Program-made: the position numbers and the translations under genes | The notes under the pieces: model-generated | Told to the model about the DNA's origin: nothing | What the model saw: the letters and a program-made list of their open reading frames with translations, nothing else | Database searches by the model: none | Shown here: positions 6,340 through 44,482 of the stretch, piece by piece | How the letters are laid out: the number at the start of each line of letters is the position of its first letter | Position numbering within the stretch: position 1 is the first letter of the stretch | Assembly (NCBI RefSeq): GCF_013409935.1 | Contig: NZ_JACCCO010000003.1 | Location: 1,054,001 to 1,118,000, forward strand | Reading direction: 5' to 3' | Length of the DNA stretch: 64,000 nucleotides | From: Streptosporangium sandarakinum | GTDB taxonomy: Bacteria > Actinomycetota > Actinomycetes > Streptosporangiales > Streptosporangiaceae

Positions 6340-8013
6340 ATGTCCGCAGACGTGGTCATCGCCGGAGCCGGCCCCAACGGGCTGATGCTGGCCTGTGAGC
6401 TGAGCCTGGCCGGAGTGCGGCCGATCGTCCTGGAGCGGCTGCCCGCACGTACCACCGAGAACCGTGCCAACGGCCTGGTCGGCCAGGTGGTGCGGATGCT
6501 CGACCGCCGGGGCCTGTACGGGCGGCTCGGCGGCGGCTCCGAGCCGCCCCGGCCGGTGCCCGCCTTCGTGTTCGGCGCGCTGCCGCTCGACCTGAGCACG
6601 CTGGACGACAACCCGCTCTACGTCCTGGGGACGCCGCAACTGCGCATCGAGCAGGTCCTGGAGGAGCGCGCCGTCGAGCTGGGCGTCGAGATCCGCCGGG
6701 GACACGAGCTCACCGGTCTGTCGCAGGACGCCGAGGAGGTCGTCGCCGACGTCGCCGGGCCCGACGGCCCCTACCGGCTGCGGGCCCGCTATCTCGTCGG
6801 GGCCGACGGCGGGCGCAGCGTGATCCGGAAGCTGGCGGGGATCGGCTTCCCCGGCGTGACACGGGACTCCACGGTCTCCCGCACCGCGTCCGTCACCGTG
6901 CCGCCGGAGCTGGTGGACCCGGCCACCGGCGGGCTGAACGTGCTCGGCCACGGGCTCGTCCCGCCGTTCATGCACCACCGCACCGAGCGCGGGCTGTTCG
7001 TCTTCGCGCCCTTCCCCGGCCGCTCGACCCTGGTGACCACCATGGAGTGGGAGCCCGGCGCCGCCGAGGACGACGGGCGGCCGCCGTTGACCCTGGAGGA
7101 GCTGCGGGAGAGCGTCCGCCGGGTCCTCGGGGCCGACCTCCCCCTCGGCCCGGACACGGGGCCCGGCCCGCACCTGATGCGCCGCCTGGTCGGCGGCAAC
7201 ACCCGGCTGGCCGACCGGTTCCGGGACGGCAGGGTGCTGCTGGCCGGCGACGCGGCGCACGTGCACTCGGCGATCGGCGGCCCCGGCCTCAACCTGGGCC
7301 TGCAGGATGTGGTCAACCTCGGCTGGAAGCTCGCCGCCGAGATCCGCGGCTGGGCCCCGCCCGGCCTGCTGGACAGTTACGAGGCCGAACGGCGGCCGGC
7401 GGCCGAGCGGGTCGTCATGCACACCCAGGCGCAGTCCGCGCTGATCGCCCCGGGCGAGGAGGTCACCGCGCTGCGCCGGCTGTTCACCGAGCTGCTCGGC
7501 GACCGGAACGTCGTCCGGCACATCGCCGGCACCATGGCCGGGGCGGACGTCCGCTATGACATGGGCGCGGGCGACGCCCACCCCCTGGTAGGCCGGTGGG
7601 CGCCCGACGTGTCACTCGACACCGAGACCGACACCGACACCGGCGACGGCGCCGGTCCGGTACGGCTCGCCGAGCTGACCGCGGACGCCCGGCCGCTGCT
7701 GCTGGACCTGACCGGGGACGCGTCCCTCGCCGGGGAGGCGGCCGGGTGGGACGACCGGGTCAAGGTCATTACCGCGCGCCTCCTGGACCCGGCGACCACG
7801 AACGCCCCGGGTGTCCGGGACGGCTCGGCCGGCTCGCGAGGCTCCGGCGGCCCGGGCGACGGTGGGTCCGGCGAGATCACGGCCCTGCTGCTGCGGCCCG
7901 ACTGCTACGTCGCCTGGGCCTCGTCGTCGCCCCGCCCGGACTCCGCCGAGCGTGAGGCCCTCCGTGCCGCCCTGGCCCGGTGGTTCGGGGCGCCGGTGAC
8001 CGTGGACGCCTGA
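6340..8013 (+). CDS. FAD-dependent aromatic-type monooxygenase (PheA/TfdB family)
   Basis: NAD(P)H- and O2-dependent flavoprotein hydroxylase of 557 residues. It has the N-terminal Rossmann motif GAGPNG (about residues 8-13), the GADGGRSVIRKLAG motif near residue 155 and the FAD-ribityl motif GDAAHVHSAIGGPGLNLGLQ near residue 303; the C-terminal 150 residues fit the thioredoxin-like domain of this group. Relatives hydroxylate phenols, polyketides or rifamycins, so the substrate is open. The ATG at 6340 follows AGAGGAGG; an upstream in-frame ATG at 6271 lacks a ribosome-binding site. It is in the TetR neighbourhood and may be induced by its substrate. Confidence 0.9.
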   Translation: MSADVVIAGAGPNGLMLACELSLAGVRPIVLERLPARTTENRANGLVGQVVRMLDRRGLYGRLGGGSEPPRPVPAFVFGALPLDLSTLDDNPLYVLGTPQLRIEQVLEERAVELGVEIRRGHELTGLSQDAEEVVADVAGPDGPYRLRARYLVGADGGRSVIRKLAGIGFPGVTRDSTVSRTASVTVPPELVDPATGGLNVLGHGLVPPFMHHRTERGLFVFAPFPGRSTLVTTMEWEPGAAEDDGRPPLTLEELRESVRRVLGADLPLGPDTGPGPHLMRRLVGGNTRLADRFRDGRVLLAGDAAHVHSAIGGPGLNLGLQDVVNLGWKLAAEIRGWAPPGLLDSYEAERRPAAERVVMHTQAQSALIAPGEEVTALRRLFTELLGDRNVVRHIAGTMAGADVRYDMGAGDAHPLVGRWAPDVSLDTETDTDTGDGAGPVRLAELTADARPLLLDLTGDASLAGEAAGWDDRVKVITARLLDPATTNAPGVRDGSAGSRGSGGPGDGGSGEITALLLRPDCYVAWASSSPRPDSAEREALRAALARWFGAPVTVDA

Positions 8014-31835: not shown

Positions 31836-33005
31836 GTGCCGGATGTCGTCGTGATCGGCGCCGGGGTGGTGGGCGCCGCCTGCGCCCATTACGCGGCGCG
31901 GGCCGGACTCGACGTGGTCGTGCTCGACCGCGGGCCGGTGGCCGGCGGCACGACCGGCGCCGGGGAGGGCAACGTGCTGGTCTCCGACAAGGAGCCCGGC
32001 CCCGAGCTCGACCTGGCCGTGCTGTCCGCCGGGCTGTGGCGCGAGCTGGCCGGGCTCGGCGGGTTCGAGTACGAGCCCAAGGGCGGCCTGGTCGTCGCCG
32101 AGGACGACGAGGTGCTGGCCGCCCTCACCGCGCTGGCCGCGGGGCAGGGCGTCGAGCACACCGTGGTCGACGCCGGGCGGCTCACCGACTACGAGCCCCA
32201 CCTGGCCCCGGGCTTCGCCGGGGGCGTGTTCTACCCCCAGGACGCCCAGGTCCAGCCCATGCTGGCCGCGGCCACGCTGCTCCGGGAGGGCGGCCGGGGC
32301 GCCGGGCGCGGCACGCTGAGCCTGCGCACCGGCGTCACGGTCACCGGGTTCCTCCGCGACGGCGAGCGCGTCACCGGCGTGCGGACCGACCGCGGCGACA
32401 TCCCCGCCGGGGCCGTCGTCAACGCCGCCGGGACCTGGGGCGGCGAGGTCGCCGCGCTGGCCGGGGTACACCTGCCGATCCTGCCGCGGCGCGGGTTCAT
32501 CCTGGTCACCGAGCCGCTGGACGAGCCGCTCGTGCTGCACAAGGTCTACACCGCCGCCTACGTCACCAACGTCGCCAGCGACTCGGCGGGCCTGGAGACC
32601 TCGGCCGTGGTCGAGGGCACCCCCTCCGGGCCGGTCCTCATCGGCGCCAGCCGCGAGCGGGTCGGCTTCGACCGCACGGTCTCGATCCCGGTCCTGGAAC
32701 GGCTCGCCCGCCAGGCCGTCGAACTGTTCCCCGCGCTGGCCGCGCGCCGGGTGATCCGCGCCTACTGCGGGTTCCGCCCCTACTGCCCCGACCACCTCCC
32801 GGTGATCGGCGAGGACCCCAGGGCCCCGGGGCTGTACCACGCCTGCGGCCACGAGGGCGCCGGCATCGGCCTGGCCCCGGCCACCGGGCACCTGATCGCC
32901 CAGGCCCTGACCGGCGCCCGGCCCGGCCTGGACCTGGACCCCTTCCGCCCGGACCGCTTCGACCCGGACCGTTCCGGCACCGGCACACCCGCCAAGGAGG
33001 GCTGA
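31836..33005 (+). CDS. D-hydroxyproline dehydrogenase-type FAD oxidoreductase subunit (DAO fold)
   Basis: Probable catalytic flavin subunit that oxidises cis-4-hydroxy-D-proline to pyrroline-4-hydroxy-2-carboxylate. The 389-residue protein has an N-terminal FAD motif VVVIGAGVVGAACAHYAARA, GTTGAGEGNVLVSDKEPGPE, and GLYHACGHEGAGIGLAPATG near the C-terminus. It is followed by a [2Fe-2S] subunit and a second FAD subunit; this triad is known in Pseudomonas hydroxyproline dehydrogenase and in octopine oxidase/HcnABC. The epimerase and DapA-like genes nearby support the hydroxyproline role. GTG at 31836 after AACGAGGTGGG. It overlaps the next gene by one base. Confidence 0.87.
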   Translation: MPDVVVIGAGVVGAACAHYAARAGLDVVVLDRGPVAGGTTGAGEGNVLVSDKEPGPELDLAVLSAGLWRELAGLGGFEYEPKGGLVVAEDDEVLAALTALAAGQGVEHTVVDAGRLTDYEPHLAPGFAGGVFYPQDAQVQPMLAAATLLREGGRGAGRGTLSLRTGVTVTGFLRDGERVTGVRTDRGDIPAGAVVNAAGTWGGEVAALAGVHLPILPRRGFILVTEPLDEPLVLHKVYTAAYVTNVASDSAGLETSAVVEGTPSGPVLIGASRERVGFDRTVSIPVLERLARQAVELFPALAARRVIRAYCGFRPYCPDHLPVIGEDPRAPGLYHACGHEGAGIGLAPATGHLIAQALTGARPGLDLDPFRPDRFDPDRSGTGTPAKEG

Positions 33006-33319
33006 TGCGGCCACCGTACGAGCTCGTGGGGGCGCGTCCCGACCCCGCGTTCGAGATCAGCGTGGACGGCAGGCCCGTCCCCGTCGTCCCCGGCCAGAGC
33101 GTCGGCGCCGCGCTGCACGCCGCGGGCGTCCGCTCCTGGCGCTCCACCCGGTTCGGGGGCCGCCCCCGGGGGCTGTTCTGCGGAATCGGGGTCTGCTTCG
33201 ACTGCCTGGTCACCGTCAACGACGTCCCCGCCCTGCGGGCCTGCGTGACCGAGGCCCGTCCGGGCGACCGGGTCCGCACGTCCGCGGCGGACTCCGGTCC
33301 GGAGGTGAGCGGCCGGTGA
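33005..33319 (+). CDS. [2Fe-2S] subunit of the D-hydroxyproline dehydrogenase
   Basis: Small 104-residue electron-transfer subunit of the (2Fe-2S)-binding/SoxA-HcnA type. The plant-ferredoxin-like ligand set is Cys59, Cys64, Cys67 and Cys80, in FCGIGVCFDCLVTVND and ALRACV. ATG at 33005 overlaps the upstream stop by one base (TGATG), and the downstream gene overlaps its stop as GTGA, so the three subunits are translationally coupled. It should pass electrons between the two flavin subunits. Confidence 0.92.
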   Translation: MRPPYELVGARPDPAFEISVDGRPVPVVPGQSVGAALHAAGVRSWRSTRFGGRPRGLFCGIGVCFDCLVTVNDVPALRACVTEARPGDRVRTSAADSGPEVSGR

Positions 33320-34731
33320 CGCGCGTGTACGACCTGGCCGTCATCGGCGCGGGGCCCGCCGGGGTCGCCGGCGCGCTGGAGGCGTCCCTCGCCGGGCTGG
33401 ACGTCGTGGTGATCGACGCCGCGCCCCGGCCCGGCGGGCAGTACCACCGCCACCTGCCCGACTCCTTCCACGCCCTGCGCCCCGGGGCGCTGCACCACGG
33501 CCTGGAGCGGTTCATGCGGCAGTGGGAGGCGCTGCGGTCGCGCGCCGAGATTCTGCTCGGCCACCGCGTCTGGGCGGTCGAGCGGACCGGCGGGGACGCG
33601 GCGGGAGGTACGGCGGGCGCCACGGTGACCGTGCGGTGCCTGGCCGGGGACCGCGAGGAGCGGCCCCGCGCGGTCCGCGCCCGCGCCCTGCTGATCGCCA
33701 CCGGCGCGCACGACCGGCCGCTGCCGTTCCCCGGCTGGGACCTGCCCGGCGTGCTCACCGCGGGCGGGGCCCAGGCGCTGCTCAAGGGCTCCCTGGTCGT
33801 GGCGGGCCGCAGGGTCGTGGTCTCCGGGACGGGCCCCTTCCTGCTGCCGGTCGCCGCCGGGCTGGCCAGGGCCGGCGCCGACGTGCGCGGCGTCTACGAG
33901 GCGGGCGGCCGGTTCGGCCTGGCCCGGCACCCGCTGCTCGCCGCGGGCAAGGCCGCCGAGGCCGCCGGCTACGCCGCCGTCCTGGCCCGCCACCGGGTGC
34001 CCTACCGAGGCCGCCACGCGGTCGTCGCCGCGCACGGCGAGGACACGCTGACCCACGTCACCGTGGCCCGGCTCGACGCGGACTGGCGGCCGGTCGCGAC
34101 GAGGACGGTCGAGTGCGACACCCTCGCCTGCGGCTACGGGTTCGTCCCCCAGCTGGAGCTGCCCGTCCAGCTCGGCTGCGCGACCCGCCGCGACGCCGAC
34201 GGCACCCCCGTCGTCGCGGTGGACGCGGGCCGGCGCACCAGCGTGCCCGGCGTCTACGCGGCGGGGGAGACCACCGGCGTCGGCGGCGCGGAGCTGGCCG
34301 AGGCCGAGGGCCGCCTGGCCGGCCGTACCGTCGCCGCCGACCGGGGCCTCCGCGTCCCGCCGCTGCCCGCCCTGGCGCGGCGCGTGGACCGGCTCGCGGC
34401 CTTCGCGCGGGCGCTGCACGAGGCCTACCCGGTACGGCCCGGCTGGCGCGACTGGCTGCGCGACGACACCCTGGTCTGCCGTTGCGAGGAGGTGCCGCTG
34501 TCGGCCGTGCGCGAGGCGCGCCGCCTGGGCGCCACCGACGCGCGCTCCGTCAAGCTTCTGGCCCGGCCCGGTATGGGCTGGTGCCAGGGCCGCATGTGCG
34601 GCTACGCCGTGGCGTGCCTGGCGGGCGAGGACCCCGCCGCGCCGCGGCGCCCGATCGCCCAGCCCGTCCGGCTCGGCGACCTCGCCGGCCTGGAACACCC
34701 CCTTCGGAAGGATGACCGTGATGACCCGTGA
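33316..34731 (+). CDS. FAD/NAD(P)-type oxidoreductase subunit with C-terminal BFD-like [2Fe-2S] domain
   Basis: Large subunit of the three-part dehydrogenase, 471 residues. The N-terminal FAD motif is DLAVIGAGPAGVAGALEASL, with GGQYHRHLPDSF, and ALLIATGAHDRPLPFPGWDLPGVL is typical of HcnB/octopine-oxidase subunit A proteins. A cysteine cluster near the C-terminus, LVCRCEEVPL and GWCQGRMCG, fits a bacterioferritin-associated-ferredoxin-like [2Fe-2S] site. GTG at 33316 overlaps the upstream stop. Its 3' end overlaps the next gene by 11 bp. Confidence 0.88.
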   Translation: MTRVYDLAVIGAGPAGVAGALEASLAGLDVVVIDAAPRPGGQYHRHLPDSFHALRPGALHHGLERFMRQWEALRSRAEILLGHRVWAVERTGGDAAGGTAGATVTVRCLAGDREERPRAVRARALLIATGAHDRPLPFPGWDLPGVLTAGGAQALLKGSLVVAGRRVVVSGTGPFLLPVAAGLARAGADVRGVYEAGGRFGLARHPLLAAGKAAEAAGYAAVLARHRVPYRGRHAVVAAHGEDTLTHVTVARLDADWRPVATRTVECDTLACGYGFVPQLELPVQLGCATRRDADGTPVVAVDAGRRTSVPGVYAAGETTGVGGAELAEAEGRLAGRTVAADRGLRVPPLPALARRVDRLAAFARALHEAYPVRPGWRDWLRDDTLVCRCEEVPLSAVREARRLGATDARSVKLLARPGMGWCQGRMCGYAVACLAGEDPAAPRRPIAQPVRLGDLAGLEHPLRKDDRDDP

Positions 34732-35614
34732 GAAGCCCTGGCGCGGAGTGATGGTGGCCACCGCGCTGCCGCTCGGCGGCGACGACCTGGCGCCCGACTT
34801 CGCCCGCTACGCCGAGCACTGCCGCTGGCTGGTCGACGGCGGCTGTGACGGCGTGGTGCCGAACGGATCGCTGGGCGAGTACCAGACGCTGACCGCCGAG
34901 GAGCGGGCCAGGGTCGTGGAGACCGCGGTCGAGGCGGTCGGCGGCGACCGCGTCATGCCCGGCATCGCCGCCTACGGCGCCCTGGAGGCGCGCCGCTGGG
35001 CCGAGCAGGCCCGCGACGCCGGCTGCGGGGCGGTCATGCTGCTGCCGCCCAACGCCTACCGGGCCGACGAGCGGGCGGTGTTCGAGCACTACCGCGAGGT
35101 CGCCAGGGCGGGCGTGCCGATCGTGGCCTACAACAACCCCCTCGACACCAAGGTGGACCTCACCCCCCGGCTGCTGGCCCGGCTCCACGAGGAGGGGCTG
35201 ATCGTGGGCGTCAAGGAGTTCACCGGAGACGTGCGCCGGGCCTACGAGCTGGCCGAGCTGGCCCCCGGCCTGGACCTGCTGGTCGGCTCCGACGACGTGC
35301 TGGTGGAGCTGCTGCTGGCCGGCGCGGTCGGCTGGGTGGCCGGCTACCCCAACGCGCTGCCCCACTCGTGCGCGGCCCTGTACGCCGCGGCCGCGGCCGG
35401 TGACCTGGCCACCGCGCTGCCGTTGTACCGTTCGCTGCACCCGCTGCTGCGCTGGGACTCCAAGACCGAGTTCGTCCAGGCCATCAAGCTGTCCATGGAC
35501 CTGGCCGGCCGGCCGGGCGGCCCCTGCCGCCCGCCGCGCACGCCGCTGGCCCCCGAGCAGGAGGCCGCGGTGCGCGCGGTGACCGAGAAGGTCCTGGCGG
35601 AGGGCCTGCGCTAG
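34721..35614 (+). CDS. DapA-like pyrroline-4-hydroxy-2-carboxylate deaminase
   Basis: Class I aldolase-fold enzyme of 297 residues. In hydroxyproline pathways this family member deaminates pyrroline-4-hydroxy-2-carboxylate to 2-oxoglutarate semialdehyde. The Schiff-base Lys165 is in IVGVKEFTGD and the catalytic Tyr137 in VAYNNP; N-terminal PNGSLGEYQTLTAEER is close to the DapA signature. I chose ATG 34721, eight bases after GGAAGGA; ATG 34712 overlaps that site. The assignment rests on family plus its place between the dehydrogenase and the epimerase. Other DapA-like functions cannot be excluded. Confidence 0.85.
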   Translation: MTREKPWRGVMVATALPLGGDDLAPDFARYAEHCRWLVDGGCDGVVPNGSLGEYQTLTAEERARVVETAVEAVGGDRVMPGIAAYGALEARRWAEQARDAGCGAVMLLPPNAYRADERAVFEHYREVARAGVPIVAYNNPLDTKVDLTPRLLARLHEEGLIVGVKEFTGDVRRAYELAELAPGLDLLVGSDDVLVELLLAGAVGWVAGYPNALPHSCAALYAAAAAGDLATALPLYRSLHPLLRWDSKTEFVQAIKLSMDLAGRPGGPCRPPRTPLAPEQEAAVRAVTEKVLAEGLR

Positions 35615-35638
35615 CGGGTCCCGAGCGTCCGCCCGACG

Positions 35639-35779
35639 CCCCGAGGGGGAACCGAACGCCTCCGAGGGGGAATACGAGCGTCCCCGAGGGAGAGCTGAGC
35701 GCCTCCGAGGGGAAACCGAACGCCCCCGAGGGAGGACCCAGCGTCCCCGAGGGGAACACGAACGTCCCCGAGGAGGGGG
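35639..35779 (+). repeat. Seven ~21-bp tandem repeats upstream of hydroxyproline epimerase
   Basis: Six full units and one partial unit of CYCCGAGGGRRA-N-CGARCGY type run from 35639 to 35779, mostly 21 bp and one 22 bp. Each unit carries a GAGGG or GAGGGG core resembling a Shine-Dalgarno sequence, and the last (GAGGAGGGGG, 35770-35779) is the ribosome-binding site of the epimerase. The spacing is two helical turns. They fill nearly all of the 167 bp after the DapA-like gene. Confidence 0.75.
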
Positions 35780-35781
35780 AG

Positions 35782-36783
35782 ATGAGAACGAAACGGGTCT
35801 TCCACGCGGTGGACTCCCACACCGAGGGCATGCCCACCCGGGTCGTCACCGGGGGAGTGGGGGTCATCCCCGGGGCCACCATGGCCGAGCGCCGCGAGCA
35901 CTTCCTGGCCGAGATGGACCACGTCAGGACCCTGCTGATGTACGAGCCGCGCGGCCACTCGGCCATGAGCGGGGCCATCCTGCAACCGCCCACCCGGCCC
36001 GACGCCGACTACGGCGTGCTCTACATCGAGGTCTCCGGCTGCCTGCCGATGTGCGGCCACGGGACCATCGGCGTGGCGACCGTGCTGGTGGAGACGGGGA
36101 TGGTCGAGGTCGTCGAGCCGGTCACCACCATCCGGCTCGACACCCCCGCCGGGCTGGTCGTCGCCGAGGTGCGCGTCGAGGACGGCGCCGCCGTCGCGGT
36201 CACCATCGTCAACGTGCCCTCCTTCAGCGTCGGCCTGGACAGGGTGGTCGAGGTGCCCGGCCTGGGCGAGGTCCGCTACGACCTGGCCTACGGCGGCAAC
36301 TTCTACGCGATCGTGCCGATCGAGTCGGTCGGCCTGCCGTTCGACCGCGCCGCCAAGGACCGCATCCTCGGCGCGGGGCTGGCGATCATGAAGGCGGTCA
36401 ACGAGGAGGACGAGCCGGTCCACCCGCTGGACGACGGCATCCGGGGCTGCCACCATGTGCACTTCACCGCCCCCGGCTCCGACGCCCGCCGCTCGCGGCA
36501 CGCGATGGCCATCCACCCCGGCTGGTTCGACCGCTCGCCGTGCGGCACCGGCACGAGCGCCCGGATGGCGCAGCTGCACGCCAGGGGCGAGCTGGGCCTG
36601 GACATCGACTTCGTCAACGAGTCGTTCATCGGCACCCGGTTCGTCGGGCGGCTCGTCGCGGAGACGGAGGTGGCGGGCCGGCCCGCGGTGGTCCCGGCCA
36701 TCACCGGGCGGGCGTGGGTCACCGGGACCGCGCAGTACTTCCTCGACCCGCGCGACCCGTTCCCCGCGGGCTTCCTGCTCTGA
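35782..36783 (+). CDS. 4-hydroxyproline 2-epimerase (proline racemase family, Cys/Cys type)
   Basis: PLP-independent epimerase of 333 residues, predicted to convert trans-4-hydroxy-L-proline into cis-4-hydroxy-D-proline. The two catalytic cysteines are Cys91 in CLPMCGHGTIG and Cys254 in DRSPCGTGTSA. The N-terminal DSHTEGMPTRVVTGGVG and EPRGHSAMSGAI belong to the racemase/epimerase branch. With the dehydrogenase and deaminase genes upstream it completes the first three steps of 4-hydroxyproline breakdown; proline racemase is an alternative activity. ATG 35782 follows GAGGAGGGGG from the repeat array. A hairpin follows at 36789-36831. Confidence 0.88.
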   Translation: MRTKRVFHAVDSHTEGMPTRVVTGGVGVIPGATMAERREHFLAEMDHVRTLLMYEPRGHSAMSGAILQPPTRPDADYGVLYIEVSGCLPMCGHGTIGVATVLVETGMVEVVEPVTTIRLDTPAGLVVAEVRVEDGAAVAVTIVNVPSFSVGLDRVVEVPGLGEVRYDLAYGGNFYAIVPIESVGLPFDRAAKDRILGAGLAIMKAVNEEDEPVHPLDDGIRGCHHVHFTAPGSDARRSRHAMAIHPGWFDRSPCGTGTSARMAQLHARGELGLDIDFVNESFIGTRFVGRLVAETEVAGRPAVVPAITGRAWVTGTAQYFLDPRDPFPAGFLL

Positions 36784-36873: not shown

Positions 36874-36918
36874 TTGACGGCCCAGGGCACGCGCTAGTGC
36901 AATGTCACACATCACTAG
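36874..36918 (+). promoter_or_regulatory. Promoter region with CTAGTG-N13-CACTAG and TGTGACAT for ABC importer operon
   Basis: TTGACG at 36874-36879 with TAGTGC at 36895-36900 is a candidate promoter with a short 15-base spacer. An inverted repeat CTAGTG (36894-36899) and CACTAG (36913-36918) spans it, and inside lies ATGTCACA (36902-36909), the reverse complement of the octamer TGTGACAT found in the other island promoter. This fits co-regulation by one protein. Confidence 0.45.
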
Positions 36919-36934
36919 CCGTGAGGAGCCGCAC

Positions 36935-38104
36935 ATGCGTGCCACCCCCCTTACCTCCATCGCCTCGCTGGCCGCCGTGGCCCTGCTCGCCACCGGATGT
37001 GGCCAGGGGCTGCTCGGCGGCGGCGACGGAGGCGACACCGCCAAGACGAACGAGCCGATCGTCCTCGGAATGCTGATCCCCCAGTCGGGCAGCGAGGCAG
37101 CGATCGGCCCATATATGAGCAACGCGGCCCAGCTCGCCGTAGACGAGATCAACGCCAAGGGCGGGGTCCTCGGCCGCAAGCTGCAGCTCAAGACCGCCGA
37201 CGACGCCTGCGACGCCCAGTCCGCGGCGGCCGGAGCCAACAAGCTGGTCACCGAGGGGGTGGACGTCTCGGTCGGAGGATACTGCTCCGGCGCGACCCTG
37301 CCCACCCTTCCGATCTTCGGCAAGGCGAACATACCGATGATCATTCCGGCGGCCAACTCCCAGGAGCTGGTCGACCAGAAGCTCAAGCACGTCTTCCTCA
37401 TCAACGGCACCGGCACCCAGCAGGCCGCCGCCGCCGAGAAGTGGATGACCAAGCAGGGCGCCAAGAGCGTCGCGCTGATGCACGACAACACCAGCTACTC
37501 CAAGGACATCGCGCTGCGCACCCAGACCCTGCTGGACGCTCCCGGCGGCGCCGACACCGCGCTCATCGAGGCGGTCACCCCCAAGGAGAGCGACTACAGC
37601 GCCAACATCACCAACGTGCTGGCCAAGAAGCCCGACTTCGTCTACTGGACCGGCTACTTCCAGGAGGGCGGCCTGATCGCCCGCCAGCTCCGCCAGGCCG
37701 GCTACAAGGGCTCCATCATGGTCGGCGACGGCTCGGTCTCGCCCAAGCTCGTCGAGATCGCCGGCCCCGAGGCCGCCGAGGGCGTCTACGCCACCATGAC
37801 CCAGACCCCCGACACCCTGGAGGGCGCCGAGGGCTGGATCGAGGCGTACAAGAAGAAGTTCGGCGCCGAGCCCGGCCCCTACTCCAACCAGGCCTACGAC
37901 GCCGTACGGCTGGCCGCCGAGGCGGTCGGCAAGGCGGGCGGCACCGACGGCGCCAAGGTCATCGCGGCGCTGGAGGCGATCGACGGGTTCCAGATGTTCT
38001 CCGGGCCGCTGAAGTTCACCCCCGAGCACACCCTGTCCAACGGCGGGTTCCAGATCCTGGTCGTCAAGGACGGAAAGATCATCCTGCAGGACTCCCTGAA
38101 ATGA
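36935..38104 (+). CDS. Branched-chain-type ABC transporter substrate-binding lipoprotein
   Basis: Extracellular lipid-anchored binding protein of 389 residues of the LivK/Leu-Ile-Val-binding family. The signal peptide ends in the lipobox LLATGC near residue 22. The mature part begins EPIVLGMLIPQSGSEAAIGP and has the periplasmic-binding-protein type I layout (AVDEINAKGGVLGRKLQL, GEGVDVSVGGYCSGAT-like region, YSNQAYDAVRLAAEAV). Location inside the hydroxyproline island suggests it binds hydroxyproline. ATG 36935 is preceded by AGGAG. It overlaps the permease start as ATGA. Confidence 0.93.
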   Translation: MRATPLTSIASLAAVALLATGCGQGLLGGGDGGDTAKTNEPIVLGMLIPQSGSEAAIGPYMSNAAQLAVDEINAKGGVLGRKLQLKTADDACDAQSAAAGANKLVTEGVDVSVGGYCSGATLPTLPIFGKANIPMIIPAANSQELVDQKLKHVFLINGTGTQQAAAAEKWMTKQGAKSVALMHDNTSYSKDIALRTQTLLDAPGGADTALIEAVTPKESDYSANITNVLAKKPDFVYWTGYFQEGGLIARQLRQAGYKGSIMVGDGSVSPKLVEIAGPEAAEGVYATMTQTPDTLEGAEGWIEAYKKKFGAEPGPYSNQAYDAVRLAAEAVGKAGGTDGAKVIAALEAIDGFQMFSGPLKFTPEHTLSNGGFQILVVKDGKIILQDSLK

Positions 38105-38994
38105 CGCAGCTCATCTGGAACGGGCTGTTCGTCGGCTCGTTCTACGCCCTGGTGGCGCTGGGCTACAGCATGGTCTACGGGATCATCAAGCTGCTCAACT
38201 TCGCCCACGGCGACCTGTACATGCTCGGCGCGTTCGCCGGCTTCGCCATCCTCGGCGCGGTCGGCGGCGTGTCCTCCTCGATGGCGCTGCCCGTGCTGCT
38301 GGCCGTACTGGTGGTGACCATGGCCGTCACCGGCCTGGCCGGGGTGGCGCTGGAGCGGATCGCCTACCGGCCGCTGCGCCGCGCCCCCCGCCTCTCCCTG
38401 CTGATCACCGCCGTCGGCGCGTCCTTCGCCCTGGAGTACGGCATGCGCGCCGCCGCCGGGGCCGACCCGCGGGTCTACCCGCTGCGGCTCGGCGGCTCCT
38501 CGCTGGAGGTCGCCGGGGCCAGGCTGACAGTCGCGCAGCTCGTCCTGGTCGGGGTGGCCGTGGTCCTCATGATCGGGCTGAACCTGCTGGTCACCCGGAC
38601 CCGCGAGGGCCGCGCCATGCGGGCCATCGCCCTGGACCCGACCACCAGCTCGCTGATGGGCATCGACGTCAACGCCGTCATCTCCCGGACCTTCTTCATC
38701 GGCTCGGCCCTCGCCGGGGCCGCCGGGGTGATGGCGGGCGCCTACTACGGCAAGATCGACTTCCTGATGGGGTTCCTGATCGGGCTCAAGGCGTTCACCG
38801 CGGCCGTCATCGGCGGCATCGGCAACATCCCCGGCACGATGCTCGGCGGCCTGGTGCTCGGCCTGCTGGAGTCGTTCGGCACGTTCTGGCTGGGCGGCGA
38901 GTGGCGCGACGTCTTCGCCTTCGGGGTGCTGATCCTGTTCCTGACCGTGCGGCCCACCGGCCTGCTCGGCGAACGCGTGACGGAGCGAGTGTGA
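38101..38994 (+). CDS. Branched-chain-type ABC transporter permease (LivH-like)
   Basis: First membrane permease of the importer, 297 residues with about eight helices. The N-terminus (LIWNGLFVGSFYALVALGYS, then MVYGIIKLLNFAHGDLYMLG) is the classic LivH signature, and the conserved ALDPTTSSLMGIDVNAVISR loop, which contacts the ATPases, is in the middle. ATG at 38101 overlaps the upstream stop and the downstream gene starts within its stop (GTGA), so all five transporter genes form one tightly coupled operon. Confidence 0.95.
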   Translation: MTQLIWNGLFVGSFYALVALGYSMVYGIIKLLNFAHGDLYMLGAFAGFAILGAVGGVSSSMALPVLLAVLVVTMAVTGLAGVALERIAYRPLRRAPRLSLLITAVGASFALEYGMRAAAGADPRVYPLRLGGSSLEVAGARLTVAQLVLVGVAVVLMIGLNLLVTRTREGRAMRAIALDPTTSSLMGIDVNAVISRTFFIGSALAGAAGVMAGAYYGKIDFLMGFLIGLKAFTAAVIGGIGNIPGTMLGGLVLGLLESFGTFWLGGEWRDVFAFGVLILFLTVRPTGLLGERVTERV

Positions 38995-40136
38995 CCCGCG
39001 TCCCCGACACCACCCCCGAAGGCGCCCCCGAGGACACGGTCCGCAGCACGGCGGCGGACACGGCCGAGAGCACGGGCGGGAGCGCGACCGCGGGCGCGGC
39101 ACGGGCCGCCGCCCCGGACGAGGCCACAGGCGAGGCCGTGAACGAGACCACGAACGAGGCCGCGGGCCCCGCCCGGAAGACCGCCGAGGTCCGCCGACGC
39201 GGCGCCGGCCGGCCCCCCACCCGCGCCTCCCGGCTGCTGCAGAACCGCTGGGCCGGACTGGCCGGCCTGCTCGTCGCGCTGCTCGCGCCGTTCGTCAACG
39301 CCACGCCGTACGCGCTGTCGGTCATGACCAGCGCGGCCATCTTCGTGATGCTCGCCGCCGGGCTGAACATCGTGGTCGGCTACTGCGGCCTGCTCGACCT
39401 CGGCTACGTCGCGTTCTTCGCGGTCGGCGCCTACACCAGCGGCGTGCTGGCCACTCGCCTGGACCTGCCGCTGGTGGCCACCGTGCCCGCCGTCATCGTC
39501 GTCACGGTCGTGGCGGGCATCGTCATCGGCGCGCCCACCCTGCGGCTGCGCAGCGACTACCTCGCCATCGTCACCCTCGGCTTCGGCGAGATCATCCGGA
39601 TCACCGCCAACAACCTGGACGTCACCGGCGGCCCCTCGGGCATCTACGGCATCCCCGGCCTGGCCGGGAGCCCGGTGGCGTTCTACTACCTGACCGTGGT
39701 CGTCGTCGCGCTGGCAGTCCTCGGCGCCGCCCGGCTGGGCCGCTCCCGCATCGGCCGGGCCTGGCGGTTCGTCCGCGAGGACGAGGACGCCGCCGAGGCC
39801 ATGGGCGTGCACACCTACCGCGTCAAGCTCGCGGCCTACATCGCCGGCGCCGTCTGGGGCGGCCTGGCCGGGGTGCTGTTCGCCGCCCACCTGTCGGCGA
39901 TCTCCCCGGGCAGCTTCACCTTCCTGCAGTCGGCCCTGGTGCTGATGGCCGTCGTCCTGGGCGGCATGGGATCGATCCCCGGCGTCGTCATCGGCGCCAT
40001 CGTGATCAGCATCCTGCCGGAGATCCTCCGCGACCTGGCCGACTACCGGTTCTTCCTGTTCGGAGTCCTGCTCATCGCCGTCATGCTGCTGCGCCCGCAG
40101 GGGCTGTGGCCCGCCCGGTCCAAGGAGGTCCCGTGA
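38991..40136 (+). CDS. Branched-chain-type ABC transporter permease (LivM-like) with N-terminal tail
   Basis: Second permease, 381 residues. The LivM core with about nine helices begins near residue 82 (NRWAGLAGLLVALLAPF) and has LAAGLNIVVGYCGLLDLGYV and the coupling loop EDEDAAEAMGVHTYRVKLAA. In front of it is a hydrophilic tail of about 80 residues rich in Ala, Thr and Glu, absent from most LivM proteins. The GTG at 38991 overlaps the LivH stop, favouring this start, though a shorter start inside the tail is possible. Confidence 0.93.
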   Translation: MTRVPDTTPEGAPEDTVRSTAADTAESTGGSATAGAARAAAPDEATGEAVNETTNEAAGPARKTAEVRRRGAGRPPTRASRLLQNRWAGLAGLLVALLAPFVNATPYALSVMTSAAIFVMLAAGLNIVVGYCGLLDLGYVAFFAVGAYTSGVLATRLDLPLVATVPAVIVVTVVAGIVIGAPTLRLRSDYLAIVTLGFGEIIRITANNLDVTGGPSGIYGIPGLAGSPVAFYYLTVVVVALAVLGAARLGRSRIGRAWRFVREDEDAAEAMGVHTYRVKLAAYIAGAVWGGLAGVLFAAHLSAISPGSFTFLQSALVLMAVVLGGMGSIPGVVIGAIVISILPEILRDLADYRFFLFGVLLIAVMLLRPQGLWPARSKEVP

Positions 40137-40903
40137 CGACCCTGCTGAGCGTTTCGGACCTGCGCCTGTCCTTCGGCGGGCTGCTGGCCATCGACGGGCT
40201 GACGTTCTCGGTGAACGAGGCGGAGGTCGTCTCGGTCATCGGGCCCAACGGCGCCGGCAAGACGTCGGCCTTCAACTGCGTCACCGGCTTCTACCGCCCC
40301 ACCGCGGGGCAGATCATGCTGCGCGGCCGGAGCCTGCGCGGCCTGCGGCCGTCGGCCGTCGCCGCGCTCGGCGTCGCCCGGACCTTCCAGAACCTGCGCC
40401 TGTTCGGCGAGCTGTCGGTCCTGGACAACGTGCGGGCCGGCGCCCACCTGTGGCTGCGGCAGAACGTCCTGGACGCGCTGCTGCACACCCCCCGCTACCG
40501 CCGCTCCGAGCGCGAGTGCACCGAGCAGGCCCACCACTGGCTCGACTTCGTCGGCCTGCGCGGCGACCGGTACGGCGAGGCCCGCCACCTGCCCTACGGC
40601 GAGCAGCGCCGCGTCGAGATCGCCCGGGCGCTGGCCCGCCGCCCCGACCTGCTGCTGCTCGACGAGCCCGCCGCCGGTCTCAACCACGGCGAGAAGACCG
40701 AGCTGCTCGACCTGATCCGCCGCATCCAGGCGCTGGGCGTGGCCATCGTCCTCATCGAGCACGACATGGGCCTGGTCATGGAGGTCTCCGAGCGCGTGGT
40801 CGTGCTCAACTTCGGCAAGGAGATCGCCGACGGCCGCCCGGAGGACGTGCGCCGCGACCCGGCCGTCATCGAGGCCTACCTCGGGAGCGACACCCATGCT
40901 TGA
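40133..40903 (+). CDS. ABC transporter ATP-binding protein (LivG-like)
   Basis: Cytoplasmic ATPase of 256 residues that powers the importer. Walker A is GPNGAGKTS, followed by Q-loop VARTFQNLRLF, signature LPYGEQRRVEIARAL and Walker B LLLLDEPAAGLN with the switch His in VLIEHDM. LPYGEQRR is the LivG-type form of the signature. GTG at 40133 lies after AAGGAGG and overlaps the LivM stop. It overlaps the LivF gene by 8 bp. Confidence 0.96.
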   Translation: MTTLLSVSDLRLSFGGLLAIDGLTFSVNEAEVVSVIGPNGAGKTSAFNCVTGFYRPTAGQIMLRGRSLRGLRPSAVAALGVARTFQNLRLFGELSVLDNVRAGAHLWLRQNVLDALLHTPRYRRSERECTEQAHHWLDFVGLRGDRYGEARHLPYGEQRRVEIARALARRPDLLLLDEPAAGLNHGEKTELLDLIRRIQALGVAIVLIEHDMGLVMEVSERVVVLNFGKEIADGRPEDVRRDPAVIEAYLGSDTHA

Positions 40904-41603
40904 GATCAGCGGACTCGACGTCCACTACGGCGGCGTGCACGCCCTGCGGGGGCTGTCGCTCACCGTCGGGCCGGGCGAGATCGTCGCCCTGCTCGGCAAC
41001 AACGGCGCCGGCAAGACCACCACGCTGGCGGCGGCCTCCGGGCTGGTACGGCCCAGCGGCGGCACGGTCGTCTTCGACGGCCACGACGTCACCGGCGGCA
41101 GGCCGCACCGCGTCACCGCCCTGGGCCTGGTCCACGTCCCCGAGGGCCGCCGGGTCTTCAGTACCCTCACCGTCCACGAGAACCTCCAGCTCGGCGGCTA
41201 CCTCGTCCGCGACCAGGCCGAGGTGCGCAGGCGGATCGACCGGGCCTACGAGCTGCTGCCCCGGCTGGCGGAGCGGCGCGCCCAGCAGGGCGGCACGCTG
41301 TCCGGCGGCGAGCAGCAGATGCTCGCCATCGGCCGGGCCCTGGTCACCGGGCCCAGGATGCTGCTGCTCGACGAGCCGTCCATGGGACTGGCCCCGCTGG
41401 TGGTGGCCTCGGTGATGGAGCTGATCGCCCAGATCAACGCCGAGGGCACCGCGGTGCTGCTCGTCGAGCAGAACGCCACCGCCGCGCTCGGCATCGCCCA
41501 CCGCGGCTACGTGATCGAGAACGGTGAGCGCGTGCTGGACGGCCCGGCCGCCGAGCTGCGCGACGACCCCCGCGTGGTCGAGGCGTACCTGGGCGGCGTC
41601 TGA
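40896..41603 (+). CDS. ABC transporter ATP-binding protein (LivF-like)
   Basis: Second ATPase of the importer, 235 residues. Walker A is GNNGAGKTTTLAAASG, with LVHVPEGRRVFSTLTVHENL, signature LSGGEQQMLAIGRAL and Walker B LLLDEPSMGLAPLVV, all typical of LivF. ATG at 40896 overlaps the LivG gene by 8 bp. A terminator-like hairpin follows at 41677-41706, ending the transporter transcript before the next enzyme genes. Confidence 0.96.
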   Translation: MLEISGLDVHYGGVHALRGLSLTVGPGEIVALLGNNGAGKTTTLAAASGLVRPSGGTVVFDGHDVTGGRPHRVTALGLVHVPEGRRVFSTLTVHENLQLGGYLVRDQAEVRRRIDRAYELLPRLAERRAQQGGTLSGGEQQMLAIGRALVTGPRMLLLDEPSMGLAPLVVASVMELIAQINAEGTAVLLVEQNATAALGIAHRGYVIENGERVLDGPAAELRDDPRVVEAYLGGV

Positions 41604-41766: not shown

Positions 41767-42783
41767 ATGCAGATCCACACCGTGGACTACCACACCGGCG
41801 GCGAGCCGTTCCGGATCGTCACCGCCGGAACGCCGGACATCCCCGGCGGCACGGTCCTCGAACGCCGCGAGGCGGCGCGGGCCCCGCAGATCGACGCCGT
41901 GCGGCGGCTGCTCTGCCACGAGCCGCGCGGCCACGCCGACATGTACGGCTGCTTCCTCGTCCCGCCCGACGACGACGGAGCCCACCTCGGCGTGCTGTTC
42001 TGGCACAAGGACGGCTACTCCACCGCCTGCGGCCACGGCACCATCGCGCTCGGCGTCCACGCCGCCGACACCGGCCTGGTGGCGACCGCCCCGGACGGGG
42101 AGACCGACGTCGTGGTGGACGTCCCCTCCGGCCGGGTGACGGCCCGGGTGCGCCGCTCGGCGGGCCGCGTCGAGGCCGTCACCTTCCGCAACGTCCCCTC
42201 CTACGTGCTCGCCCGGGACGTCGAGCTGGGCCCGCTCGCCGCCGCGGCCGGCCCCGCCTCGTCCGTCCCGGGTCTTCCCGGCCTGGCCGGGGTGACCGCC
42301 GACGTCTCCTACGGCGGGGCCATCTACGCCTCCGTCCCGGCCGCCGCGTTCGGCCTCGCCGCGGCCCCCGAGCACCTGACCGCGCTGATCGCGCTCGGCC
42401 GGGCCGTCAAGGCCGCCCTGGCCGGCCACCCCGCCGCCCGGCACCCGGAGGACGAGCGGCTGTCGGGGATCTACGGCGTCATCTTCTACGACGAGCTGGG
42501 CCCCGGCCACCAGCGCAACGTGACGGTCTTCGCCGACGGCGAGGTGGACCGCTCGCCCTGCGGCTCGGGCACCGCCGCCCGGCTGGCGCTGCTGCACGCC
42601 GACGGCTTCACCGGCACGCTCGTCCACGACGGCGTCGTGGGGGCCTCCTTCCGGGCGCGGGTGGCCGAGGAGACGGAGGCGGGCGTGATCCCCGAGATCG
42701 AGGGAATGGCCTACCGCACCGGCGAGCACCGCTTCACCCTGGACCCGCGCGACCCGCTGGGCACCGGGTTCACGCTCCGATGA
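41767..42783 (+). CDS. Proline racemase-family enzyme, trans-3-hydroxy-L-proline dehydratase-like but with Cys/Cys pair
   Basis: PLP-independent enzyme of 338 residues. Its sequence (VDYHTGGEPFRIVTAGTPDI, EPRGHADMYGCFLVP, GYSTACGHGTIALG, GIYGVIFYDE) resembles trans-3-hydroxyproline dehydratases more than the epimerase at 35782, and it pairs with an imine reductase gene. The active-site pair is Cys88 and Cys265 (DRSPCGSGTAAR); known dehydratases such as human L3HYPDH have Thr at the second site. It may be a dehydratase with an altered residue or another racemase/epimerase. ATG 41767 with GGGAGA upstream; ATGA overlap with the reductase. Confidence 0.8.
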   Translation: MQIHTVDYHTGGEPFRIVTAGTPDIPGGTVLERREAARAPQIDAVRRLLCHEPRGHADMYGCFLVPPDDDGAHLGVLFWHKDGYSTACGHGTIALGVHAADTGLVATAPDGETDVVVDVPSGRVTARVRRSAGRVEAVTFRNVPSYVLARDVELGPLAAAAGPASSVPGLPGLAGVTADVSYGGAIYASVPAAAFGLAAAPEHLTALIALGRAVKAALAGHPAARHPEDERLSGIYGVIFYDELGPGHQRNVTVFADGEVDRSPCGSGTAARLALLHADGFTGTLVHDGVVGASFRARVAEETEAGVIPEIEGMAYRTGEHRFTLDPRDPLGTGFTLR

Positions 42784-43772
42784 GCGCGCCCCCCTACCTG
42801 GACGGGCCGGCGCTGCGCGAGCTGGTGCCGATGGCCACGGCCGTCCGGGTGCTGGAGGAGGCGCTGCTCGCCGGGCTCGACCCCGAGGACGGCCCGCAGC
42901 GGCCCGTCGTGGAGGTCCCCGCCGGGCAACTGCTGCTGATGCCCGCCGCCTGGGGCCGCTTCACCGGGATCAAGGTGGCCGGCGTCGCCCCGGGCAACCC
43001 CGCCCGCGGCCTGCCCCGGATCTGCGGCACCTACCTGCTGATGGACGGCGAGACCCTCGTCCCGCTGGCCGTGCTGGACGGCGCCGCGCTCACCGCGCTG
43101 CGCACCCCGGCCGTCTCGGCGCTGGCCGTACGGCACCTGGCAGCCGAGGACGCCGGGCACCTGACGGTGTTCGGCACCGGGCCGCAGGCGTGGGGGCACG
43201 TGGAGGCGCTGCGCGCGGTCCGGCCGCTGCGGAGGGTCAGCGTGGTCGCCCGGGACCCGGCGCGGGCGGAGGAGTTCGCCGCCCGCTGCGCCGCCGCGGG
43301 CCTGCGGGCGGACACCCTGCCCGCCACGGCGCCCGCCGCCGGGTACGGAGCACCGCCCGGAACGGCGCCCGCCCTGGCCGATCCCGGACAGTCCGGCCTC
43401 GTGGCCTGCTGTACCACCTCCAGGACCCCGTTGTTCGACGGTAGGATGATCCGCGACGGCGTGACCGTGATCGCGGTCGGCTCCCACGAGCCGGACGCCC
43501 GGGAGATCGACGATGACCTCGTCGCGCGGTCCACCGTGGTCGTCGAGGCGCGCCGCGCCGCCCTCGCCGAGGCGGGAGATCTGGTCATCCCGATACGGAA
43601 CGGTACGATCACTTCCGGTCATCTCGCCGGGAACCTCGCGGACCTGGTCACCGGTGCCGTGTCCCCCGGCCCGGGGCCGCGGGTGTTCAAGAGCGTGGGC
43701 ATGGCGTGGGAGGACCTGGTGGTGGCGGGAGCCGCCTACGAGGCGTGGCTGCGGGCCCGGACGACGAGATGA
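42780..43772 (+). CDS. Ornithine cyclodeaminase/mu-crystallin-family imine reductase
   Basis: NAD(P)H-dependent enzyme of 330 residues, likely reducing pyrroline-2-carboxylate to L-proline in trans-3-hydroxyproline use. It has the family elements FTGIKVAGVAPGNPARGLPR, TALRTPAVSALAVRHLA, the Rossmann motif LTVFGTGPQAWGHVEAL and IAVGSHEPDAREID. Classical ornithine cyclodeaminase is an alternative, but the pairing with a racemase-family gene favours the reductase. ATG overlaps the upstream stop; the GntR gene overlaps its stop as ATGA. Confidence 0.87.
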   Translation: MSAPPYLDGPALRELVPMATAVRVLEEALLAGLDPEDGPQRPVVEVPAGQLLLMPAAWGRFTGIKVAGVAPGNPARGLPRICGTYLLMDGETLVPLAVLDGAALTALRTPAVSALAVRHLAAEDAGHLTVFGTGPQAWGHVEALRAVRPLRRVSVVARDPARAEEFAARCAAAGLRADTLPATAPAAGYGAPPGTAPALADPGQSGLVACCTTSRTPLFDGRMIRDGVTVIAVGSHEPDAREIDDDLVARSTVVVEARRAALAEAGDLVIPIRNGTITSGHLAGNLADLVTGAVSPGPGPRVFKSVGMAWEDLVVAGAAYEAWLRARTTR

Positions 43773-44482
43773 GAGGCGGGAGGATGGCTCCTTCGGCGGA
43801 CGACCGGCTCGACCTGCCGGCGGTGGGTGAGCGGCAGAGCCTGCGGGAGCAGGTGGCGCACGCCCTGCGGGCCGCCCTGATCACCGGCGAGATGCGGCCC
43901 GGCGTCGTGTACTCGGCGCCCGTGCTGGCCGCCCAGTTCGGCGTCTCGGCCACCCCGGTGCGCGAGGCGATGCTCGACCTCGCCAAGGAGGGCCTGGTCG
44001 AGGCGGTGCGCAACAAGGGCTTCCGGGTCACCGAGCTGTCCGACCGCGACCTGGACGAGCTCACCGAGATCCGGCTGCTCATCGAGGTGCCCACGGTGAC
44101 CCGCCTGGCCGCCGCGGGCGGTACGGACGGCACGGGCGGCGCCGCGAGGTTCGACCCGCTGCGCCCGCTGGCCCGGAAGATCGTCGACGCGGCCGACCGC
44201 GGCGACCTGATCGCCTATGTCGACGCCGACATCCGCTTCCACCTGGAACTGCTGGCGCTGGCCGGAAACGCGCACCTGGTGGACGTGGTGCGCGACCTGC
44301 GCGGCCGCGCCCGCCTGTACGGCCTGCCCGCCCTCAGCGCCCGGGGCGGCCTGGCCGGCTCCGCCCGCGAGCACCTCGAACTGCTCGACCTGCTGGCGGC
44401 CGGCGACCGGGAGGGCACCGAGCGGCTGATCCGCCGCCACATCGGCCACGTCCGCGGCATCTGGGCCGGCGGCACCGACTAG
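43769..44482 (+). CDS. GntR-family (FCD domain) transcriptional regulator
   Basis: Probable ligand-responsive repressor of the hydroxyproline island, 237 residues. The winged helix is about residues 22-90 (SLREQVAHALRAALITGEMR, AAQFGVSATPVREAMLDLAK, FRVTELSDRDLDEL) and the C-terminal FCD/VanR-type helical domain has the metal/ligand histidines in DADIRFHLELLALAGN and SAREHLELLDLLAAG. ATG 43769 overlaps the reductase stop; ATG 43784 lies immediately after GGGAGG, too close. Candidate operators are at 31790 and 36902. Confidence 0.9.
   Translation: MRGGRMAPSADDRLDLPAVGERQSLREQVAHALRAALITGEMRPGVVYSAPVLAAQFGVSATPVREAMLDLAKEGLVEAVRNKGFRVTELSDRDLDELTEIRLLIEVPTVTRLAAAGGTDGTGGAARFDPLRPLARKIVDAADRGDLIAYVDADIRFHLELLALAGNAHLVDVVRDLRGRARLYGLPALSARGGLAGSAREHLELLDLLAAGDREGTERLIRRHIGHVRGIWAGGTD

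Follow-up and report, generated by a model that had tools for sequence, protein, structure and literature searches.

The window, that is, the whole 64,000-nucleotide stretch of Streptosporangium sandarakinum DNA analysed here, contains a gene for a 338-residue protein, P0001, which a profile search assigns to the proline racemase superfamily (PF05544, 280 bits against a cut-off of 27). Its translation bears out the motifs HTGGEPFRIV, EPRGHADMYG and GYSTACGHG, as well as the second active-site residue Cys265 in DRSPCGSG, that an earlier note made from the sequence had pointed out; the first catalytic residue, Cys88, lies within GYSTACGHG. P0001 carries the Cys/Cys pair of proline racemases, and lacks both the Thr of the Cys-Thr dehydratase type at the second catalytic position (Cys265) and the Ser of the Ser-Cys/Ser-Thr dehydratase/epimerase types at the first (Cys88). 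It scores far below the cut-off of the NCBIfam dehydratase model (284.8 vs 540) and below that of a second dehydratase model, NF047722 (137.9 vs 550 bits). Since the Thr is absent and these cut-offs are missed, P0001 is not classed as a Cys-Thr enzyme and is only said, on the strength of its sequence, to work like that type. A search of the genome retrieved two superfamily genes, P0001 and P0003, both within the window. In the closest named relative found, Streptosporangium pseudovulgare, this protein is 98% identical.

The earlier note had also coupled P0001 to an imine reductase, and this holds: the start of the next gene and the P0001 stop codon share the sequence ATGA. The encoded protein belongs to the OCD/mu-crystallin family (PF02423, 158.7 bits, cut-off 24); its top NCBIfam family is PRK06141, yet the score is below the cut-off (215.4 vs 322). 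Its best solved match is PDB 6t3e, a Delta1-pyrroline-2-carboxylate reductase, presumably from T. litoralis. The product is thus a probable Delta1-pyrroline-2-carboxylate reductase.

Upstream of P0001 lie a branched-chain-type ABC transporter, P0003, a DHDPS-family gene and a three-part D-amino acid oxidase-like enzyme (Table 1). Judged from these gene assignments, the layout is that of a combined trans-4- and trans-3-hydroxyproline catabolic cluster, in which the LivKHMGF-type transporter is probably a hydroxyproline importer. None of the ORFs read near the 4-hydroxyproline genes (31836-36783) was recognisable as an aldehyde dehydrogenase, and the aldehyde dehydrogenase of a Yinghuangia cluster (L110) has a best match of only 39% identity in the source genome (G000). 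The last 4-hydroxyproline step may therefore be encoded elsewhere or by another family.

Table 1. Genes and codons of the P0001 cluster, with positions counted within the window
Feature	Position	Strand	Basis or remark
D-amino acid oxidase-type beta subunit	31836..33005	+	ORF text and synteny
Small [2Fe-2S] subunit of D-hydroxyproline dehydrogenase-like oxidase	33002..33319	+	ORF text; start set by eye
D-hydroxyproline dehydrogenase-like alpha subunit	33316..34731	+	Family profiles
Cluster gene between the P0003 and oxidase alpha-subunit genes	34712..35614	+	Family profiles
P0003, 4-hydroxyproline 2-epimerase-like paralogue, Cys/Cys with Ser/His pocket	35782..36783	+	
LivKHMGF-type amino acid ABC transporter genes (substrate-binding protein 36902-38104, two permeases, ATPases 40106-40903 and 40896-41603)	36902..41603	+	ORFs and synteny; family names by reading sequences
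P0001, Cys/Cys trans-3-hydroxyproline dehydratase-like protein, proline racemase superfamily	41767..42783	+	Translation, family profiles, tree
Tyr60 codon, dehydratase pocket	41944..41946	+	Human Tyr76
Cys88 codon, first catalytic residue	42028..42030	+	Human Cys104
Tyr236 codon, dehydratase pocket	42472..42474	+	Human Tyr241
Cys265 codon, second catalytic position	42559..42561	+	Thr273 in human
His287 codon	42625..42627	+	In 106/107 Cys/Cys and 0/24 Cys/Thr rows of Tyr/Tyr type
Ornithine cyclodeaminase-family imine reductase, probable Delta1-pyrroline-2-carboxylate reductase	42780..43772	+	Start overlaps P0001 stop codon
GntR/FCD regulator	43706..44482	+	Longest ORF; true start probably further in

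Family tree and distribution of the catalytic pair

Removal of near-identical entries reduced 265 sequences to 213, from which 114 representatives were taken for a maximum-likelihood tree, computed by a quick search without bootstrap and with column 265 left out. One branch (SH-aLRT 99) separates 31 rows, namely the racemase, epimerase and Ser-type rows together with one odd Cys/Gly row, from 83 rows comprising the human and T. litoralis dehydratases, annotated LhpH proteins and P0001. The family tree that the earlier note had proposed as a check thus places P0001 on the dehydratase side, apart from ordinary proline racemases. Several rows of this tree are long, and the long, odd Ser/Gly row L212 also falls on the dehydratase side. 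The STACGH clade comprises 68 rows (58 Cys/Cys and 10 Cys/Thr; SH-aLRT 99) and stands beside the human-enzyme group with a support of 90, which is under the starred level.

Exchange of Cys and Thr at the second position is observed repeatedly. The fewest changes between Cys/Cys and Cys/Thr amount to six on the whole tree, five among the rows with the Tyr/Tyr pocket described below and three inside the STACGH clade, where at least three are needed; well-supported branches force at least three such label changes on the whole tree. The Thr rows L073 and L097, for instance, are nested deep among Cys rows (support 97). Natural Cys and Thr versions within one clade offer a clean test of the role of the second residue in dehydration.

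Among 100 homologous ORFs from the relatives and named genomes, a count that includes repeats (L002 and L003 are one gene), 98 are Cys/Cys and two Cys/Thr, hence Cys265 is no sequencing slip. In all 118 distinct actinobacterial STACGH-motif sequences fetched, the second position is Cys in 108 and Thr in 10. As the sample was centred on P0001, these counts describe its clade and not the superfamily. The published classification leans on the second letter, with Cys denoting racemases or epimerases and Thr dehydratases, the latter being classed as Cys-Thr or Ser-Thr types (PMC4364671, available portion). The branch of P0001 breaks this second-letter rule, so that proteins annotated as 'proline racemase family protein' may be dehydratases.

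Pocket residues and characterised relatives

Tyr60 and Tyr236 of P0001 align with Tyr76 and Tyr241 of the human enzyme, which are given in the accessible text of PMC9309405 as the hydrogen-bonded pair of the closed form. The human numbering was set by Cys104, whereupon nine of the 11 residues named in that text match by letter, both tyrosines included; its Asp98 and Asn267 are Glu and Gln in the PDB chain used. The available part of Goytia 2007 (PMC1964878) assigns Phe at site R1 to racemases, Ser or Val to 4-epimerases, and Tyr or His to proteins with neither activity, and reports His at site R2 in 4-epimerases. At the place of Phe102 (R1) P0001 has Tyr60 instead of the racemase Phe, and with Tyr60 and Tyr236 it has neither the Ser/Val at R1 nor the His at R2 of 4-epimerases.

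Across the 213 rows, the Tyr/Tyr pocket occurs with the [YFW]S-x-x-CGH motif in 131, of which 107 are Cys/Cys (one gapped at residue 60) and 24 Cys/Thr, and in none of the racemase-, epimerase- or Ser-type rows. A Tyr at the residue-60 place goes with a dehydratase-type motif in 130 of 131 rows, the remaining one being an annotated LhpH copy. An exception is the annotated LhpH L203, a second copy outside the tree representatives, which combines Tyr/His with Cys/Thr. Racemase-type rows have Phe at the first pocket place. The 65 Cys/Cys rows with a Ser pocket have His at R2 in 52 cases and another letter in 13, indicating that this His is not strict for the 4-epimerase type. Collectively, the row, tree and neighbour counts indicate that the pocket tracks tree position and gene neighbours, whereas the second catalytic residue does not, and the Tyr60/Tyr236 pair seems to mark dehydratase function.

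P0003, of the 4-hydroxyproline 2-epimerase type, shares the superfamily and the Cys/Cys pair with P0001 but differs in its Ser/His pocket, its LPMCGH motif and its place on the other side of the tree. The proline racemases of A. sticklandii (7pb3) and L. salivarius (L211) likewise share the superfamily and the pair, but have a Phe/Asp pocket and an LNMCGH motif; for L211, which lies beside the D-proline reductase genes prdA and prdB, this pocket is as expected of a racemase. In the window, none of the ORFs read was recognisable as a prd gene. It is improbable, then, that P0001 is itself a genuine racemase or epimerase, whether its substrate is 4-hydroxyproline, 3-hydroxyproline or proline, that acts together with the cluster's D-hydroxyproline dehydrogenase while the reductase is incidental or recycles an imine. 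Such a role would agree with Cys/Cys as the racemase/epimerase pair and with a broad Cys/Cys racemase/epimerase of T. litoralis found in a similar cluster (PMC4364671, in the portion available), but the pocket has neither the racemase Phe nor the Ser/His of P0003.

The best solved match of P0001 is the Thermococcus litoralis dehydratase, with which it shares a Cys at the first position in a YST-CGH motif and the Tyr/Tyr pocket; unlike P0001, this enzyme has Thr as its second catalytic residue, Met in front of the first Cys (Ala87 in P0001) and Ile at the place of His287. Human L3HYPDH (PDB 7qpo) also lies on the dehydratase side of the tree and has the corresponding pocket, but carries Thr273 for Cys265, and Cys137 where P0001 has Val119. 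In the predicted structure of P0001 (mean pLDDT 90.4), Foldseek ranks the T. litoralis dehydratase first, whereas VIA-align scores this dehydratase and a proline racemase as equals (Z 43.0 and 43.3); the model confirms the fold and cannot choose the function.

Precedents for the Cys/Cys pair come from Bacilli. In the available part of PMC1964878, both B. anthracis homologues are listed as Cys/Cys, and neither racemase nor epimerase activity is reported for these two proteins and one Cys/Cys protein of V. parahaemolyticus. According to the accessible sections of Zhao 2014 (PMC4113996), Bacilli proteins of cluster 5, which like P0001 have reductase neighbours, were assayed as dehydratases, and a B. 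cereus protein of cluster 4 was placed among 4-epimerases. The two B. anthracis proteins appear to be counterparts of clusters 4 and 5; if they match, it is very likely that Bacilli have Cys/Cys dehydratases. B. badius L201 resembles P0001 in its Cys/Cys pair, Tyr/Tyr pocket, His287 and adjacent reductase, lies outside the actinobacterial STACGH clade, and would itself belong to cluster 5. It was the only sequence above 60% identity recovered from plasmids when a Bacillus cereus sequence was sought as precedent; viral contigs gave none. The Bacilli dehydratases of 2014 are thus very probably Cys/Cys, a conclusion that joins the two papers with one B. badius sequence and is stated outright in neither, as far as their available text goes. 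With these precedents set against the classes of PMC4364671 (portion available), the Cys/Cys dehydratase variant is probably known in substance, though the text accessible here does not name it as such; the accessible parts of the literature on dehydratase active-site pairs and pyrroline-2-carboxylate reductases describe no Cys-Cys dehydratase. The accession list in the available part of PMC4113996 includes D2AV87. The earlier note would have abandoned its proposal had Cys/Cys dehydratases proved already common and characterised: the pair is indeed common in the branch, while the assayed Bacilli enzymes very probably have it without this being said outright. As for D2AV87, we take it to be from Streptosporangium roseum.

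Within the Tyr/Tyr rows, His287 accompanies Cys265 in 106 of 107 Cys/Cys rows and Thr265 in none of the 24 Cys/Thr rows; the exception, L091, has Cys265 with Asn287 and is sister to two Thr265 rows. This pattern would favour a bifunctional P0001 with a side epimerase activity, in which irreversible dehydration and the reductase drain both substrates to L-proline, but the link fails an independent-contrast test (three supported contrasts, two for and none against, sign test p 0.5), which is far too small for the link to count as support. The human Thr273Cys variant (Visser 2012) reportedly regains 4-hydroxyproline epimerase activity, suggesting that a natural Cys265 could epimerise. PaLhpL (PA1255), which we take to be Q9I489, would through this mapping share Cys at the second position with P0001, and has reported dehydratase activity; unlike P0001, it has Ser at the first position and is bifunctional. 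The P. aeruginosa homologue Q9I489 appears as Ser-Cys in Table 1 of PMC1964878, as far as available. A Cys-to-Thr change is stated to turn an epimerase into a dehydratase in the accessible part of PMC8142540. This statement and the reported human result are the reasons for keeping side epimerase activity as a rival, possible though doubtful: the Cys/Cys B. anthracis homologues lack epimerase activity in PMC1964878, the available part of which does not mention 3-hydroxyproline as a substrate.

Gene partners and the proposed reaction

An adjacent imine reductase fits a dehydratase and not an epimerase, since the former makes an imine and the latter a D-amino acid. In the 110 distinct STACGH sequences whose flanks reach 1.4 kb or more on both sides, a reductase lies within 300 bp of the gene in 68 of 102 Cys members and 4 of 8 Thr members, and 34 of the 102 Cys members have none within this distance. 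Of the 80 loci from named genomes, 64 are flanked by 5.5 kb or more on both sides, and 42 of these have a reductase within 400 bp. A reductase homologue was found at E 1e-10 in 11 of 11 genomes, mostly picked for a missing neighbour, five of them at 47-55% identity.

Fifteen of the 42 reductase loci show no homologue of the oxidase, the 4-epimerase or the deaminase in flanks of about 6 kb, which is mostly an effect of short flanks and no sign of independence. When the 14 genomes to which these loci belong were checked in full, 12 proved to hold a 4-epimerase gene with 73-91% identity to P0003, so that independence from the oxidase pathway is seen in few genomes. In two metagenome-assembled genomes (L075 and L112), no superfamily gene was found other than the Cys/Cys one next to the reductase; a search of L075 at E 1e-20 gave no oxidase beta homologue, and L112 has distant ones only. 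Overall, an oxidase beta homologue is present in 7 of 8 Cys/Cys genomes checked, some of them distant.

The frequent presence of 4-epimerase genes (12/14) and oxidase beta homologues (7/8, some distant) in Cys/Cys genomes, like the D-hydroxyproline dehydrogenase genes within the P0001 cluster, would suit the true epimerase or racemase considered above. However, that cluster, besides its oxidase and deaminase genes, already holds the 4-hydroxyproline epimerase-type gene P0003, and the gene content of L075 and L112 also argues against such a role. Moreover, if L-proline were racemised, D-proline oxidised and the imine reduced back, a futile cycle would result. The 'new epimerase feeding the reductase' of the earlier note is likewise unsupported: a 2-epimerase would yield a D-amino acid, whereas reductases of this kind act on an imine, and P0001 does not share the pocket of P0003.

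The other option of that note, dehydration with Cys at the second position, is the better supported one in view of the tree, the Tyr/Tyr pocket, the gene partner and the closest solved relatives. We propose, with a probability of about 0.8, that P0001 dehydrates trans-3-hydroxy-L-proline and that the overlapping reductase then yields L-proline. Cys88 would be the working base, with residue 265 on the opposite face; the resulting enamine would tautomerise to Delta1-pyrroline-2-carboxylate, which the reductase would convert to L-proline. Cys265, placed where most characterised dehydratases carry Thr, would be tolerated because the reaction would be set by the Tyr60/Tyr236 pocket and not by the second catalytic letter. 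The substrate, the reaction and the direction of proton transfer in this scheme, like the role of the transporter, are what we infer from these features. According to the available part of Zhao 2014 (PMC4113996), syn-dehydration requires a single general base, the conjugate acid of which probably aids departure of the hydroxyl, and the second Cys is replaced by Thr in the dehydratases characterised by then. Cys at 265 is compatible with dehydration and could add epimerisation.

It is very improbable that the same dehydration serves another 3-hydroxy imino acid, such as 3-hydroxypipecolate or a 3,4-dihydroxyproline. The family of the neighbouring reductase also reduces piperideine carboxylates, by the name of NCBIfam PRK06141, and the pocket could be larger in P0001, since Ala87 takes the place of the Met of the human and T. 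litoralis dehydratases; against this, the genes around P0001 belong to hydroxyproline use, and collagenase/M9 peptidase genes occur near three plasmid-borne relatives. The latter genes, on Streptomyces and Arthrobacter plasmids (L192:9167-11491, L206:9978-12572 and L200:2774-5041), fit collagen use.

ProC-type reductases and unusual superfamily members

The Cys/Cys gene is followed without a gap by a ProC-family gene in Kutzneria L101, Amycolatopsis L109 and Kribbella L093 (L101:6984-7772, L109:6972-7742 and L093 about 6999-7800); in Kribbella L085 and L089 such a gene comes 722 bp downstream. In these five loci the ProC type occupies the place of the usual OCD-family reductase. All three ProC-type proteins tested score above the TIGR00112 proC cut-off, and the linked copies form one group (support 96/99). 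Each of four ProC-linked genomes tested has a second ProC, 45-47% identical to the linked copy of Kutzneria, and one of them (G492) a distant third match (35%); seven other genomes have one ProC in six cases and none in one. The four ProC-linked genomes have no close reductase of the usual kind (best 35-39%), but its lack is not peculiar to them, since two of the seven other genomes, both Kribbella (G495 and G498), lack it too. From their sequences and positions, the linked copies may be recruited Delta1-pyrroline-2-carboxylate reductases; the accessible parts of the above literature on active-site pairs and pyrroline-2-carboxylate reductases describe no ProC-type enzyme of this activity. A wider proposition, put forward as a rather unlikely one, is that across a large branch of bacteria the Tyr/Tyr pocket, rather than the second catalytic residue, decides whether the proline racemase fold dehydrates or epimerises, and that in one sub-branch a recruited ProC copy has taken over from the partner reductase and acts on Delta1-pyrroline-2-carboxylate.

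Two further loci hold members with Gly at the second catalytic position. One is an Azospirillum brasilense protein (L195:3965-4978), whose neighbours are ABC transporter, isocitrate lyase/PEP mutase-family and LeuC/LeuD-like genes. The other is a Paenibacillus cluster with two tandem superfamily genes, the second of which (L212:5024-6022) carries Ser and Gly as its catalytic pair and sits on a long branch.
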